Shown: positions 1-5,509 of the stretch, piece by piece | Layout: each line of letters starts with the position of its first letter | How positions within the stretch are numbered: position 1 is the first letter of the stretch | Source: an uncultured Clostridia bacterium | GTDB taxonomy: Bacteria; Bacillota; Clostridia; Lachnospirales; Anaerotignaceae | DNA length: 37,381 nt | Direction of reading: 5' to 3' | Assembly (NCBI GenBank): GCA_944381455.1 | Contig: CALWLF010000037.1 | Span: 1 to 37,381 of the forward strand | The notes under the pieces: model-generated | Databases searched by the model: none | What the model was told of the DNA's origin: nothing | The model's input: the letters and a program-made list of their open reading frames with translations, nothing else | Position numbers and translations under genes: made by a program

Positions 1-26
1 TTGAAAGGAAACCACAAACCTTTCAA
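1..26 (-). promoter_or_regulatory. 5'-terminal mRNA stem-loop (GGTTTGTGGTTT element, copy A)
   Basis: Read on the minus strand, an 8-bp perfect stem (TTGAAAGG with CCTTTCAA) closes a 10-nt loop TTTGTGGTTT. It begins a few bases after the predicted start of the transcript from the promoter at 38-67, so it would be the very 5' end of an mRNA for a gene beyond the left edge. The loop and the flanking GG recur in copy B upstream of the large surface protein (3269-3289), while the stem bases differ. That pattern suggests a structured RNA element rather than chance. Function unknown; an mRNA stabiliser or a regulator/RNA binding site are both possible. Confidence 0.5.
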
Positions 27-37
27 TTACAGTTTGG

Positions 38-67
38 ATTATAGCATTTGCCCTGGAAAACCGTCAA
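38..67 (-). promoter_or_regulatory. sigma-A promoter for a gene off the left edge
   Basis: On the minus strand there is TTGACG (67-62), an 18-bp spacer and a perfect TATAAT (43-38). The start point would be near position 31. The gene it serves lies outside the window. Upstream of the -35 box are TTACA repeats at 11-bp spacing (83-98) that look like a response-regulator site. Confidence 0.7.
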
Positions 68-82
68 GGCGTTTGGCAAAAG

Positions 83-98
83 TGTAACGTGACTGTAA
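83..98 (-). promoter_or_regulatory. OmpR/PhoP-like box, site 1 (TTACA-N6-TTACA)
   Basis: The minus strand reads GTTACA, five bases, GTTACA, an 11-bp period typical of tandem binding by OmpR-family regulators. A further TTACA lies at 114-118. The site starts 16 bp upstream of the -35 box of the left-edge promoter, a position suited to an activator. The same spaced motif is found at 5521, 12470 and 21335. Confidence 0.4.
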
Positions 99-329
99 CA
101 TACGCAACGGGTTTGTAACAAACATCCGTGCGACAGAGACATCTGTGCTCCCATTGTCGTTTTCCAGCCGCCACCTCCCCCTCTGCCGGCTTCGCAGAGC
201 ATTGCAGGGCAATTATACACGAAATACCTGGTTTTTTCAAGTGGATTTGATATTTTCATCACATTTCTGGGAAGATTTAACAAAGAATGACATTGCAAAA
301 CGCAACGCACGCCGCCTGTTGGAGCGTTC

Positions 330-377
330 GTTGCGTTTCGCAACAAAAGAAAGGAAATGGCCGTTGCGTTTCGCAAC
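330..377. repeat. Two identical 15-bp hairpins (GTTGCGTTTCGCAAC)
   Basis: GTTGCGTTTCGCAAC is at 330-344 and again at 363-377. Each is a 6-bp stem with a TTT loop. A third version with a longer loop (GTTGCG, six bases, CGCAAC) is at 543-560. Confidence 0.75.
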
Positions 378-580
378 AGAAACTGCTTCATGCTTCTTCG
401 GCTAAAGGCAAGTCCAAACGCCAAAGGTCCATCGGCCGCTTGCCGCAGGGCGGCAAAGTGGCTGCGGCAGGCAGCCGGGGGCAAGTCCTTGGGCGCAGCG
501 GCGCAAAAGCGTGCCCGAAGGGAGGGGGCTGCAAGGGGGAGCGTTGCGGGCCTTCGCAACACCGAGCCATGCTCCCCCTT

Positions 581-742
581 GCGGTTTCCACGCCTGGCCG
601 CAAGGCGGGAAAAGAAAAGGAAAAGCTTCTTCTTTATTTTTTTCCCCTCGGCAGGGCAGGGCGACCGTGCGCGAGGGGGAAACGCGGCCGGTTGCGACTC
701 TGAGCCTTTCTCCCTCGCGGTTTCCACGCCTAGCCGCAAGGC
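581..742. repeat. Dispersed 26-bp palindromic repeat, two copies
   Basis: Bases 581-606 and 717-742 match at 25 of 26 positions. Each contains CGCCT and AGGC(G) arms that fold on a CCGCA-containing loop. In the first copy the flanking TTTCC and GGAAA extend the stem to about ten pairs. Confidence 0.7.
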
Positions 743-889
743 AAGAAAGAAAAAGGGAGGCTCTCCTCCTTTGGTTTCTCCCCCTTTCCCCCTTTGCCAC
801 AAAAGAAAAAGCCTTCCCTCCTGCTCCCCTTTCGGTGCGGCAGAAGAAAAGGCCTTCTTTCCTCCCACCCATTGGGGCGGTAAGGAAAG

Positions 890-911
890 GGCGAGGACTT
901 TCGTCCTCGCC
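890..911 (-). terminator. Hairpin after the surface-protein gene, probable terminator
   Basis: On the minus strand a perfect 9-bp stem, GGCGAGGAC with GTCCTCGCC, is capped by a GAAA tetraloop and followed by CTTTCCTT. The U-tract is interrupted, so termination may be partial. It lies about 57 bp after the stop codon of the gene at 968-3217. Confidence 0.55.
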
Positions 912-926
912 AAGGTTTGTGGTTTT
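912..926. repeat. Inverted copy of the GGTTTGTGGTTT element in the surface-gene 3' region
   Basis: The plus strand reads AAGGTTTGTGGTTTT, the exact reverse complement of 3272-3286. In the mRNA of the gene at 968-3217 the 5' leader and this 3' segment would therefore be complementary over 15 nt. It directly precedes the terminator hairpin in that transcript. Confidence 0.7.
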
Positions 927-967
927 TTCTATGGTAAGGTTATCTTTTGTATTTTGCTAGCATTCCT

Positions 968-3217
968 TCAGTTCAAGCTTGCGGTCTTGGTTGCGTCATC
1001 CCAAGAAATCTTGCTGTCGTTGAGGCCCAGGGCATAACCCAAGTCTCTCAGAGGAATGAATGCTCTTTCGCCAGTGATTTCAACAGCTGCCTGCATCTGA
1101 ACAGGAACGCCGTTGATCAGCATAGTAGAAGAACCTACGCTCATGCTGATGACTCTGGAACCAAAGGTGATGGTTACAGTTTTGGTTGGATCATCCCATC
1201 TTACGATAGCGGAACCAGACAGAGCTTCGGTTACGGCACGCACTGGCATCATGGTGTAGCCTTTGGAGATGTAAGCAGGCACATCCAGGTCTTTTTTCGC
1301 ATCGCCCACTACCATGGCGTTAGCGCCGATGGTCACCTGCACTTTGGTGGTGAAGGTGGAGTCGTCCTGGTCACGGCCGGCAGTTACAACTTCTACATAG
1401 TCTTTGAGCACAGTCAGGCTTCTGATGTCGAACAAAGTACTATCGCCTACGGAAGCGCCTTTTTCTGCAGAAGTCTGGAAGTAAGCTTCTTTGTTGTCTT
1501 TTTCTGCAGAAGAAGAAACGTCGCCGTTGATCTTGTCGTCGCCTTTACCCAAATCGTTGGTAAATTCGCTGGAGGTATAAGGATCATATGCTACCAGTTT
1601 CAGGGCATAGGTGCCGGCTGGCAAAGAACGATCCAAGAACAGCTGGATGTTGGTTACTTTCAAGGTAGCTGGAGTCTTCGCAGATTCTTTATCGATGGTG
1701 ATGTTGATTCTGCCGTTGTTTGCTTCTACTTTGTCAATCTTGATGTCGCCTTTTACTACTTCTACCTTTGGAGAACCGTCAAATTTAATGCTATCCAGTT
1801 CCAGAGACAGGGTTTTGCCTTTTTGCAGAGCACCTGCAAATGCTTCTTCAATCATGATGTCGCCGATGGAAACATTACGATAGTCGATGGCAACTTTGTT
1901 GCTTTCTGCTTTTACAGTAATCGGTTTTTCTACAGTACCAACTACTACTTTCTGTTCTTTGCCGATACCTGCGCCGCTGAGAGTTGCTTCGATATCGCCG
2001 GTGAAATCAGGAGCGATGGAGAAACGGAATACCATTTCAATTTTTGCTTTTTTGTCTTTGCTTACTTCCACGTTGGTGAATTTCAGCTCGTTGTCATCTG
2101 CTGTATAGTGGAAGGTCACGTTTTCGCTCTTTTTCACATCCACATCCATGATCTTCACACCTGTTGGGAAGGTCAAGGTTGTTTTTCTGCCGGTGATCCA
2201 GCTGTTGGCGATGTTTTCTTTGATCGTCACTTTCAAGGAGTCGGTATCATCGCTTCTGCGGCCAGAGTAGAAGGTTGGCACAGTTTTGTTTTCTGCTGTC
2301 AAGCTTACGCTGTAGTCAGTTGCTGTACCCAGTTCCAAAGTGGTTTTGTTGATGCCTGCGCCAGAAACAGTCAGGTCACAGCGTTCGCCCACTTTCACAT
2401 CGTCAAAATCAGCTCTGATTTTGCCGCCAGTCAGGGTGATGGTCACAGCTTTGGTGCTGGTGCCTTTTACCTGATAGGTCAAAGTTTCGCCTTTCATTTC
2501 TGGTTTTTCAACGGTCAAGCCGCTGTCTGCTGGGTAGATAACAACTTTTGGTTCTTTTGCCCATTCAAAGTCGCTGCTGAGTTTGAATTTCAGTTCGCCT
2601 GCTTTCATGCTGCCGGCAGTGGCTTCTTCCAGGGTGATGGTTTTGATTTCGGTGGTGCCTTCTTTGATGGCAACCGTGTCGCTCAGGGTTACGGTGGCGC
2701 CGCCTTTTACCACGTTGGCAAATTTATAGGTGCCTGCCGAAACAACAGATTCCATTGGATCGATGGAAATCGTTGCATCCCCTTCATCGGTCAAGTCGGT
2801 CAAAATGGGGAAGGAAATTTTGCTGCCAGCTTTTCCGGTGAAGTTTTTCACGGAGAAAATAGCCTGCGTGCTGCTGATCATCTGGAATGACAATTCGTCA
2901 TCATCAATGGCGCCAGATTCATCGTTGGCATCCCCATTGACAGAAGCGCCAGGCATTTCCACAGCGGTTCCAACCTTTGCACCAGTTACATTCCATTCTG
3001 CGTTTTTCAACGTAGCTTTGAATGCAATTTCACCAGTCGCATCTTCCAAGTTCTTTTCTTCAATGGTGAAAACAGGTGCGTTGTCTTTTTTCAGTGTGGT
3101 GTCTGTTGTGCCGTTTGCAATTCGGCTTACGGTGTTTGTTGTGACCGCGAAAGCCGTAGCAGGCAACATGCCCACCACCATCACGGCAGATAACAATAAC
3201 GCAAGTTTTTTCTTCAT
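968..3217 (-). CDS. Secreted surface protein with C-terminal copper-amine-oxidase-N-like (stalk) domain
   Basis: A 749-residue exported protein. Residues 1-24 are a classic signal peptide (KKK, hydrophobic core, ATAFA cleavage site). The middle, about 30-620, is a long beta-rich, Thr/Lys/Glu-rich region without a family I can name, made of blocks that look like repeated extracellular beta-sandwich domains. About 627-749 match the copper amine oxidase N-terminal-like domain (PF07833), with the typical MPVRAVTEAL, VRWDD, FIPLRDLGYALG and ISWDDATKT signatures. In Clostridia this domain is common in S-layer-like and wall-associated proteins and does not imply oxidase activity. The start has a strong site (AAGGAGGAACAAAGA). 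It has its own promoters and leader hairpin, so it is probably an abundant cell-surface structural protein. The function of the central region is unknown. Confidence 0.85.
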   Translation of the reverse strand: MKKKLALLLSAVMVVGMLPATAFAVTTNTVSRIANGTTDTTLKKDNAPVFTIEEKNLEDATGEIAFKATLKNAEWNVTGAKVGTAVEMPGASVNGDANDESGAIDDDELSFQMISSTQAIFSVKNFTGKAGSKISFPILTDLTDEGDATISIDPMESVVSAGTYKFANVVKGGATVTLSDTVAIKEGTTEIKTITLEEATAGSMKAGELKFKLSSDFEWAKEPKVVIYPADSGLTVEKPEMKGETLTYQVKGTSTKAVTITLTGGKIRADFDDVKVGERCDLTVSGAGINKTTLELGTATDYSVSLTAENKTVPTFYSGRRSDDTDSLKVTIKENIANSWITGRKTTLTFPTGVKIMDVDVKKSENVTFHYTADDNELKFTNVEVSKDKKAKIEMVFRFSIAPDFTGDIEATLSGAGIGKEQKVVVGTVEKPITVKAESNKVAIDYRNVSIGDIMIEEAFAGALQKGKTLSLELDSIKFDGSPKVEVVKGDIKIDKVEANNGRINITIDKESAKTPATLKVTNIQLFLDRSLPAGTYALKLVAYDPYTSSEFTNDLGKGDDKINGDVSSSAEKDNKEAYFQTSAEKGASVGDSTLFDIRSLTVLKDYVEVVTAGRDQDDSTFTTKVQVTIGANAMVVGDAKKDLDVPAYISKGYTMMPVRAVTEALSGSAIVRWDDPTKTVTITFGSRVISMSVGSSTMLINGVPVQMQAAVEITGERAFIPLRDLGYALGLNDSKISWDDATKTASLN

Positions 3218-3268
3218 TCTTTGTTCCTCCTTTGGTGTAAATACCAGCCTTCTCTATGTTGCATCAAA

Positions 3269-3289
3269 GGGAAAACCACAAACCTTCCC
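3269..3289 (-). promoter_or_regulatory. 5'-terminal mRNA stem-loop (GGTTTGTGGTTT element, copy B)
   Basis: The minus strand reads GGGAA, loop GGTTTGTGGTT, TTCCC. It starts about six bases after the predicted start of the transcript from the promoter at 3302-3330, the same arrangement as copy A at 1-26. The loop is conserved while the stem sequence differs. Its complement is found at 912-926 beyond the stop codon of the same gene. Confidence 0.5.
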
Positions 3290-3301
3290 GATTGCATTTT
3301 A

Positions 3302-3330
3302 ATTTTACATTGTTCTGCATTTGGAGTCAA
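3302..3330 (-). promoter_or_regulatory. sigma-A promoter of the large surface-protein gene
   Basis: On the minus strand TTGACT (3330-3325), a 17-bp spacer and TAAAAT (3307-3302). The start point would be near 3295, giving a leader of about 80 nt that begins with the stem-loop at 3269-3289. Confidence 0.7.
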
Positions 3331-3424
3331 TATATCCCAAACAAGCTTAATTTTTCCGTAAGAATATTGTCAGAAAAATACAAAAATTCCTCTGGTTACT
3401 TCTAATTTTGGAAAAAAATTGTAA

Positions 3425-3453
3425 AATATAGAGCAATTGCTTAATTCATACAA
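3425..3453 (-). promoter_or_regulatory. Possible second upstream promoter
   Basis: On the minus strand TTGTAT, a 17-bp spacer and TATATT. The region is very A+T-rich, so this may be chance. If real, it would make a longer leader for the surface-protein gene. Confidence 0.3.
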
Positions 3454-3481
3454 TTTGACTTATTTTTCATTTTTTCCCAAA

Positions 3482-3509
3482 TAAAAAACCTCCATCTTCC
3501 GATGGAGGT
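3482..3509 (-). terminator. Intrinsic terminator of the stalk/TolC operon
   Basis: On the minus strand a perfect 9-bp stem ACCTCCATC with GATGGAGGT, tetraloop GGAA, then TTTTTTATTT. It lies about 20 bp after the stop codon of the TolC-family gene and ends the two-gene unit 5400-3531. Confidence 0.9.
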
Positions 3510-3530
3510 AAAGTGTCTGGTTTCTCGTTT

Positions 3531-4649
3531 TTATTGACCGCCGCCTGCTGCACAGGGATTTTCCAGCAAATAGACCGTGTTGGCATGGTTCAGCTTGGCA
3601 GCCTGCAAAGAATTGATGGTGGTGTCCACCTTGTTTTGGGCCTGGTCTACAGCCAGCTGGGTGCCGCTGCCGTTTTGCAGGTTCAGCTGGGCCACTTTCA
3701 AGTTGGACTGGGCCAAAGACAAGTTGGTCTCCAGCATGGCAATGGTGCCTTCCAGCTGCTGCACTGTGGCATAAGTGGTTTCACCCATTTTGGTATAGCT
3801 TTCTTCGGCGCTTTTTACATTGGCATTTGCCTGGCTGATGTTATATTCCAGCTGGTCCCAGGTATAGAGAGCCGTACTGTTGGCCAGATCAAAGCTTTTG
3901 TTGCGTTCCAAAGTTTCTGCACCCAGTTTGGCCCCTTGGAGGGTGGGGTTAGATGCATTCTTAGCTGCCAAAAACGTGCTTAAATCCGTATTGAGCACAA
4001 AGGGTTCATACTCCGGTTCATAAACCACCGAAAAATTGGTATCAGAAATACCCATCAGCCGCGCCAGGTTGGCATATGCCTGGTCCACATCACTTTGAGC
4101 CTTTGCCATATCCGTTTTATACTGCTGAATCTGCGCTTCAGCCTGGTCTACTTCCAGTTCCGTAGCCATTCCCAGCGTTTTTTTGGTATTCACCAGACGC
4201 GCCTGGTCTTCATACAGTTTCAGCTGGCTGTCTGCCATAGCCAAACTGGCTTCATTGGTGATGATGGTCGTCATGGCCGTCATCACAGAATATTCCAGCT
4301 GTTTTTGCAGCGCCTCTTTTTTATACCGGCTGGTTTGGCGCTGGACCATCAAATCGTTCAGCTGGCGCAGCGTTTCATACTGAGGCGTTACATCATAGCC
4401 CGGATCCGAAGGATAGACTTCATTTCCCAACGTCTGCCCCAGAGTTTGGCTTTGTTTGCTCATCAAATCCAGATTTTGTTCCAATAAGGATAGATCTGAA
4501 TTGTTTTTCACTGCTTTTTCCAGCACTTGTTCAAAGGTATAAACGGTGCGCTCTTCCGTCTGCACAGCAGGCGTTGCCGCAAGGGCAGGGCTTGCCAGCG
4601 TCATGGCGCTGACCAGGGCCACAGCCACCGTATTTTTCCAATGCTTCAT
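3531..4649 (-). CDS. TolC-family exported coiled-coil protein
   Basis: A 372-residue protein with a signal peptide (residues 1-24, ALA cleavage). It is almost all helical, with long Gln/Asn/Ala/Leu-rich heptad stretches. The pattern FEQVLEKAVKNNSDL near the N-terminus and a later DQAQNKVDTTINSLQAAKLNHANTVYLL segment are typical of the outer membrane efflux protein family (TolC-like, PF02321), in which two such repeats make the helical barrel. It is somewhat shorter than most Gram-negative TolC proteins. No membrane-fusion or ABC/RND partner is adjacent. It starts 16 bp after the stalk-domain gene upstream with a good site (AAGGAAGGAG), so the two are probably co-transcribed. Other genes here suggest a single-membrane cell, so its job may be structural or wall-spanning rather than classic efflux; this is inference. 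Confidence 0.8.
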   Translation of the reverse strand: MKHWKNTVAVALVSAMTLASPALAATPAVQTEERTVYTFEQVLEKAVKNNSDLSLLEQNLDLMSKQSQTLGQTLGNEVYPSDPGYDVTPQYETLRQLNDLMVQRQTSRYKKEALQKQLEYSVMTAMTTIITNEASLAMADSQLKLYEDQARLVNTKKTLGMATELEVDQAEAQIQQYKTDMAKAQSDVDQAYANLARLMGISDTNFSVVYEPEYEPFVLNTDLSTFLAAKNASNPTLQGAKLGAETLERNKSFDLANSTALYTWDQLEYNISQANANVKSAEESYTKMGETTYATVQQLEGTIAMLETNLSLAQSNLKVAQLNLQNGSGTQLAVDQAQNKVDTTINSLQAAKLNHANTVYLLENPCAAGGGQ

Positions 4650-4665
4650 GGTGTTGCTCCTTCCT

Positions 4666-5400
4666 TTAGTTGTTCACCCGATTGATGAAGTGGAAGGTGT
4701 AGTCTTCCGTTTCGCCGTCGATGGTACGCATCGTAAAGGTCAGATCTACTTTTTCATAGTCGGAAGGAATGGCATTAAAAATCAAAAAGCCTTCCCGTTC
4801 CTCTTCGTATTCAATGTAGCTGGTTTCCCAAGACTGATCCCAATAACGGTAATTGGGGTAAGCGTCAATTTCTTCCCCATCCACCGTCAGTTTGGCAGAA
4901 TTGGTGATCAGCTGGACACCGCCGGCCTGGGACAAGTTTTCCACATTCAAAAATACTTTCGTATAACCTGGGCTTTCATTGCGGGAAATGGAAGTCACCT
5001 GCACTTTATGGTCGTTTTGACGATCGCTGACAGGCAGTTTTTCATAGACAACGTTATCGCCGTCCAGCTCGCCTTTTTCCACGTACACAATTTTTTCCAC
5101 AGGTACTTCTTTCACATACGTTTTTTTGTCGCTGACAATGTCAACCACACGGGAAGCAATATCCCAGTTGACTTCTGCCCGCAGCGCTTCGCTGACAAAC
5201 CGCAGCGGCACATACGTATACCCCTGATAATTTAAAATCGGCTGATCTGACGGCGTTGCCATGGCTTCTCCATCCACTTTGATGATGACATCTTGAAACA
5301 GCGTGGCGGAAATTTTTTCATATGCGCCAAATGCAGTCACCGAAACCATGCACATTGCCCCAGCAACAAACCCAAATGCTGCCTGCTTCATATTTTTCAT
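4666..5400 (-). CDS. Exported stalk-domain (copper amine oxidase N-like) protein
   Basis: A 244-residue exported protein. Residues about 7-25 form a signal peptide or anchor. Residues about 33-90 match the copper amine oxidase N-terminal-like domain (IKVDGE, YVPLRFVSEAL, VNWDIASRVVDI). The rest, about 100-244, is a beta-rich domain with many acidic and aromatic residues that I do not recognise beyond its likely extracellular location. A strong AAAGGAGG site precedes the ATG. It is the first gene of a two-gene unit with the TolC-family gene, driven by the promoter at 5481-5509. A 16-bp TTACA direct-repeat box just upstream suggests control by an OmpR-family regulator. Confidence 0.8.
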   Translation of the reverse strand: MKNMKQAAFGFVAGAMCMVSVTAFGAYEKISATLFQDVIIKVDGEAMATPSDQPILNYQGYTYVPLRFVSEALRAEVNWDIASRVVDIVSDKKTYVKEVPVEKIVYVEKGELDGDNVVYEKLPVSDRQNDHKVQVTSISRNESPGYTKVFLNVENLSQAGGVQLITNSAKLTVDGEEIDAYPNYRYWDQSWETSYIEYEEEREGFLIFNAIPSDYEKVDLTFTMRTIDGETEDYTFHFINRVNN

Positions 5401-5480
5401 TGTATTGCGCCTCCTTTAACCATATTGTCCATTTTGGATGTGTGCAAAGAAACCCATCTCCCTGTTTCCTTGTTTGTTTC

Positions 5481-5509
5481 ATTGTACAGCCGATCGGGGT
5501 AAAATTCAA
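5481..5509 (-). promoter_or_regulatory. sigma-A promoter of the stalk/TolC operon
   Basis: On the minus strand TTGAAT (5509-5504), a 17-bp spacer and TACAAT (5486-5481). The direct-repeat box at 5521-5536 starts 12 bp upstream of the -35 element. Confidence 0.7.

Follow-up and report, generated by a model that had tools for sequence, protein, structure and literature searches.

Why should the two ends of a single bacterial surface-protein mRNA carry perfectly complementary sequences, and do they pair? To our knowledge, few bacterial mRNAs with pairing ends have been described, and these were mostly found singly in model species. The window analyzed here, a 37,381-nucleotide stretch of DNA from an uncultured Clostridia bacterium, contains near its left end a gene (gene 1) for which a preliminary description had placed the core of a leader stem-loop, AAGGTTTGTGGTTTT, at 3286-3272 of the minus strand and its exact reverse complement at 912-926, just before the terminator hairpin (911-890). 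Both elements were confirmed at exactly these positions, and the complementarity between them is perfect over 15 nucleotides (nt). The features of gene 1 are as follows.

968-3217, minus strand: gene 1, encoding a secreted surface protein of 749 amino acids (open reading frame and Pfam)
3302-3330 (read 3330-3302), minus strand: predicted gene 1 promoter, TTGACT-17-TAAAAT (consensus match only; the sister species has the same arrangement)
3269-3289, minus strand: 5'-terminal leader hairpin of gene 1, GGGAAGG-UUUGUGG-UUUUCCC (from folding; fully conserved in the sister species)
3272-3286, minus strand: 5' copy, AAGGTTTGTGGTTTT, spanning the loop of the leader hairpin
912-926, minus strand: 3' copy, AAAACCACAAACCTT, located in the gene 1 3'UTR and perfectly complementary to the 5' copy
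890-911, minus strand: predicted terminator hairpin of gene 1, abutting the 3' copy

The product of gene 1 has a C-terminal PF07833 domain (Pfam E=3e-29) and, as read from the sequence, a signal peptide, and its codon bias is the strongest of those compared (Nc of 38.4 versus 41.8 to 44.6; six neighboring genes compared). Because of the signal peptide, the tandem copies, the order-wide occurrence, and this codon bias, it is probably an abundant S-layer-like protein. The promoter at 3330-3302 predicts a transcript start near 3295, about 5 nt ahead of the leader hairpin, in agreement with the leader position given to it in the preliminary description; predicted promoter and terminator together place both pairing elements inside the gene 1 transcript, the ends themselves being predictions. 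The T-tract of the terminator is weak, with CTTTCCTT as its tail. The Shine-Dalgarno sequence GGAGG (3230-3226) lies about 40 nt downstream of the 5' copy and is left free. The leader also contains, at 3265-3214 on the minus strand, a 16-codon frame (ATG...TGA) that overlaps the start codon and is open in the sister species too; it has no preceding Shine-Dalgarno sequence and may be due to chance.

The match is rare by every count that we made. The exact 15 nt form the center of a longer inverted repeat (27 nt, 81% complementary), and among 246 genes of the fetched loci, 15 nt of complementarity between 5' and 3' flanks is reached only by gene 1 and its orthologue; the complementarity between the 5'UTR and 3'UTR of gene 1 thus exceeds chance, with the control genes falling short of it. 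Three 15-mers with at most two mismatches are found in the window, compared with 0.18 expected from 100 dinucleotide shuffles. The 14-mer core AAACCACAAACCTT has three copies in the genome (2.05 Mb, 132 contigs), all within the first 3.3 kb of this contig, and the reversed 14-mer, used as a control, has none in the 2.05 Mb; a dispersed genomic repeat is ruled out, since the copies are only three and all local. Rfam gave no match within window positions 1 to 5500. The other GGTTTGTGGTT sites in three genomes searched are mostly within or overlapping coding sequence, and two of them, at L066 and L063, stand after terminator-like hairpins elsewhere; none of these other sites is a surface-gene leader.

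The third copy, overlooked by the preliminary description, lies at 8-22; it has one mismatch to the 15-mer and is perfect over 14 nt. In the sister species (G001), the same hairpin runs into ATGAAGAAGAAACTTGC..., the start of a close paralogue, and the left end of the window is therefore the leader of a second gene (gene 2), whose coding region lies past the contig end. The contigs of both species break beside the third copy, as is to be expected where tandem paralogues are near-identical. The features of gene 2 are as follows.

1-26, minus strand: leader hairpin of gene 2, TTGAAAGG-TTTGTGGTTT-CCTTTCAA (also written TTGAAAGG-AAACCACAAA-CCTTTCAA), at the contig start, with a counterpart in the sister species
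38-67, minus strand: predicted proximal promoter of gene 2, TTGACG-18-TATAAT (consensus match; conserved in the sister species)
240-212, minus strand: second, distal promoter-like site of gene 2, TTGAAA-17-TATAAT, just downstream of the palindromes described below; present in the sister species too

The leader of gene 2 has 14 nt complementary to the 3' copy of gene 1. Between gene 1 and the promoters of gene 2, both species carry three copies of the palindrome TTGCRAAACGCAA (window 293-305, 331-343, and 364-376; about 9613-9708 in L041). There are four copies per whole genome, the fourth of which is located in each genome in or beside a small regulator gene amid phage-like genes; the array looks like an operator array for gene 2.

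The genus of the window (g1) is represented by three species, the window's genome (G000), the sister G001 (an uncultured Clostridia MAG, record CALWGC010000011.1, 91% identical protein), and G002 (60% protein identity). The conservation check in close relatives, set beforehand as the test by which the pairing could be refuted, found the pair conserved in G001 and G002, with the 3' element present behind a second paralogue as well. In G001, all three copies occur at the same places as in the window; the leader hairpin and its surroundings are identical in the alignment, and the 3'UTR retains one uninterrupted identical block of about 30 nt, CATAGAAAAAACCACAAACCTTGGCGAGGACG, comprising the 3' copy and the terminator stem, the rest having diverged with gaps. 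In G002, where one such gene was detected at the locus, the stem has changed to UGAGAGG/CCUCUCA and the loop UUUGUGGUU is the same, with AACCACAAA at +68 to +76 of the 3'UTR, directly ahead of an unrelated terminator. On contig C20 of G001, the final gene of the array is represented by its 3' end alone, which has AAAACCACAAAC ahead of yet another terminator. Across g1, the loop UUUGUGGUU is thus kept in the leaders of three species and its complement beside the terminator in four genes, and the stems vary. Since the loop is conserved while the stem has changed, and since the complement is kept only against the loop, these patterns argue for an RNA contact and not a DNA inverted repeat. There is no covariation inside g1, because neither side has changed. 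Both loop and complement are missing from the divergent paralogue at G000:C16.

Beyond the genus, a 5'-terminal hairpin following a TTGAC...TATAAT promoter recurs among homologues throughout the family and also in further families of the order; its loop varies between genera and tends toward conservation inside each. In genus g9 (three species), the loop is TGCCGGAA in G010 and G023 and GCCGGAA in G047, and the 3'UTRs contain TTCCGGCA, which matches the g9 loop though unlike the letters of g1. The 3' element of g9 (L150, L151, L152) is itself part of a hairpin loop in the 3'UTR, CTGATATTC...GAATATTAG, and the g9 contact could therefore be a kissing loop. A further pair is seen in a single species, G080 of genus g13, with the loop AGTAGCGA and with TCGCTACT in the 3'UTR ahead of the terminator. 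In the other g13 species and in g12, g15, and g4, neither hand-defined nor automatic comparisons gave a convincing match.

When loops and UTRs were defined by hand, the longest match averaged 6.7 nt in a gene's own 3'UTR and 3.6 nt in the 3'UTRs of other genera. When 3'UTRs were permuted between genera, the observed total was reached in 2 of 720 permutations if scored by length and in 8 of 720 if scored by energy, values to be taken as a guide and not as exact probabilities because there are few genera and each is made up of related species. Single-gene shuffles of the g1 and g9 genes gave p values of 0.0005 to 0.004 by match length; by energy, the 9-nt match of G002 is unremarkable (p=0.09). 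The g9 pair was spotted among 53 genes examined and then tested; independent of that choice is an automatic survey in which a program picked the loops and UTRs of 66 homologues; there, matches of at least 7 nt occur only in two g1 and three g9 genes. The automatic finder took a wrong hairpin in L042 (G002) and L100 (G080), for which hand-defined loops were used. An 8-nt match, AATTTGTA, in four G004 paralogues came from recent duplicates and was counted as one, and a scan of the family for the combination of TATAAT and loop returned mostly chance matches.

Homologous surface genes of other families (L162-L201) have a 5'-terminal hairpin whose loop is conserved, one example being AGAGG-TAAATTATGCTAA-CCTCT, and are without the 3' complement. 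A partner elsewhere in the genome was considered for the conserved loop of family f12 and rejected; in the five f12 genomes that gave a hit, the TTAGCATARTTTAC sites, apart from one in G161 (C26), adjoin surface-gene starts, as leaders would. One f12 gene (L184 of G302) has, at about +32, an 8-nt match, GCTAAGCC/GGCTTAGC, between the leader hairpin and a palindromic 3'UTR hairpin, as a single case. Most genes of other families with a similar 5' hairpin have no 3' complement; since most relatives are without the pair, it is not essential for such genes and, if functional, comes and goes.

Folding of the whole predicted mRNA (about 2.4 kb) of G000 and G001 gave the 15 pairs at probabilities of 0.45 to 1.0, near 1 in the core, and the leader additionally contacts UUCC behind the terminator. 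End-to-end pairs appear at a probability of about 0.3 in G010 and G080. In G002, the nested whole-mRNA fold prefers the hairpin, the loop-to-strand contact being a pseudoknot and thus outside the nested model.

The suggestion in the preliminary description that the two ends of this mRNA pair therewith gains support from the conserved pair, from its renewal with other letters in another genus, and from the predicted folds. On balance, we favor a conserved 5'-3' end-to-end interaction of the surface-protein mRNA that mainly stabilizes an abundant, long-lived message. At the level of sequence, pairing of the ends is well supported; that the ends touch in cells, and that stabilization of the message is the main effect, we infer. 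Several known systems bear on this reading, RNAIII being a precedent in addition to those described here. In the Bacillus subtilis hbs mRNA, a 14-nt pairing between 5'UTR and 3'UTR is reported to protect the message from RNase Y (Braun et al. 2017, reviewed in PMC7821165). The likeness to gene 1 consists in about 14 nt of pairing between the 5'UTR and 3'UTR of one mRNA, but the gene and the sequence are unrelated; in gene 1, the pairing would join the loop of a hairpin at the 5' terminus to an element directly adjoining the terminator, across 2.3 kb. The surface-gene pair has been re-made with other letters in another genus, and its protective role is a proposal. Firmicute RNase J1 requires a few free 5' nucleotides, and pairing of the extreme 5' end blocks its entry, as in the yflS mRNA, whose 5' end is shielded by the small RNA RoxS (PMC5419742). 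Pairing at the extreme 5' end as a block to RNase J1 is the basis of the mechanism that we propose, although RoxS acts in trans, whereas the partner in gene 1 would be the 3' end of its own mRNA. In the type I toxin mRNAs hok and aapA, long-distance 5'-3' pairing holds the mRNA inert until 3' processing (PMC6733600); these stable transcripts likewise pair at their extreme 5' and 3' ends in competition with a metastable 5' hairpin, but they are short toxin mRNAs, unlike the 2.4-kb surface-protein mRNA, which has a free Shine-Dalgarno sequence and for which no antisense RNA was seen. In the Staphylococcus aureus icaR mRNA, finally, a UCCCC motif of the 3'UTR masks the Shine-Dalgarno sequence, so that translation is blocked and RNase III is attracted (PMC3868564). 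There, too, a 3'UTR binds the 5' end of the message that carries it, either in cis or in trans; in gene 1, however, pairing at 3286-3272 leaves the Shine-Dalgarno sequence at 3230-3226 free, some 40 nt away, and translational repression of the icaR type is therefore less likely. Given that 5' pairing blocks RNase J1 and that the hbs pairing is reported to protect from RNase Y, the likeliest consequence is that a long-lived message is protected.

The proposed mechanism would proceed as follows. During transcription, the 5' hairpin would be made first; once the 3' end has been made, its loop would pair with the single-stranded element AACCACAAA immediately ahead of the terminator. In gene 1, the 3' element could open the hairpin, yielding a 15-bp helix beside the terminator stem. 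The two protected ends would thereby be brought together and both locked, and 5'-end-dependent decay (of the RNase J1 type, possibly also RNase Y) would be barred until both ends are complete. A more specific version, which we put forward tentatively and regard as doubtful, holds that this loop-to-tail closure (possibly loop-to-loop in g9), with a sequence that drifts and a match that is renewed, serves as an evolving lock certifying and protecting complete, highly expressed messages.

The same complementarity could instead act between molecules. The 3' element might work in trans on the leader loop of a neighboring paralogue or on a second copy of the mRNA, coordinating expression of the tandem array, with the acting RNA being either the end of a paralogue mRNA or an RNA processed from that end. 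The gene 2 leader carries an identical loop, and its 14 nt of complementarity to the 3' copy of gene 1 would allow this; in the G001 array, the element is found at every 3' end seen and the loop in every leader seen, and hly-prsA2 offers a known trans pairing of a 3'UTR with a 5'UTR (PMC7821165). We nevertheless consider it unlikely, as the G000:C16 paralogue has neither part, and the pair also exists in G002 and in the g9 genomes, where only one such full-length gene was detected at the locus, so that self-pairing is enough to explain its upkeep.

A somewhat weaker alternative, in our estimate improbable, is that independent constraints maintain loop and 3' element, the loop serving, for instance, as a site for a protein or small RNA and the A-rich stretch ahead of the terminator as a site for an RNA chaperone, and that their complementarity in g1 is incidental. 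A-rich stretches are indeed common ahead of terminators, and the presence in other families of the order of a conserved 5' loop with no 3' complement means that the loop must do something apart from such pairing. However, a perfect 15-nt match together with independent matches of 9 to 12 nt at other 3' ends is unlikely by chance, and in g9 and G080 the pair differs and yet matches again.

Inverted repeats at the DNA level, either the remnant of a mobile event raised by the preliminary description or recombination sites that invert gene 1 in phase variation, are highly improbable: the copies do flank gene 1 in inverted orientation, and the contigs of two species do break next to the third copy, but those breaks are accounted for by the near-identical tandem paralogues, order and orientation are the same in the two species that show all copies, the gene occupies the same place in three species (G002 included) with no transposase gene adjacent, no recombinase gene is found in the first 9 kb of the window (open reading frame list and Pfam), and the stems differ between copies with the loop alone conserved, the g9 sequence being different altogether.

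Returning to the end-to-end interaction that we favor, its kind is known, as bacterial 5'-3' UTR pairing; what is new is the setting in tandem surface-protein genes and the unusually good comparative support. If true, it would provide evolutionary evidence for selection on end-to-end closure of bacterial mRNAs, together with a system for testing the effect on message lifetime by compensatory swaps, and the 5' hairpin common to surface-protein genes across the order would be linked to mRNA stability.
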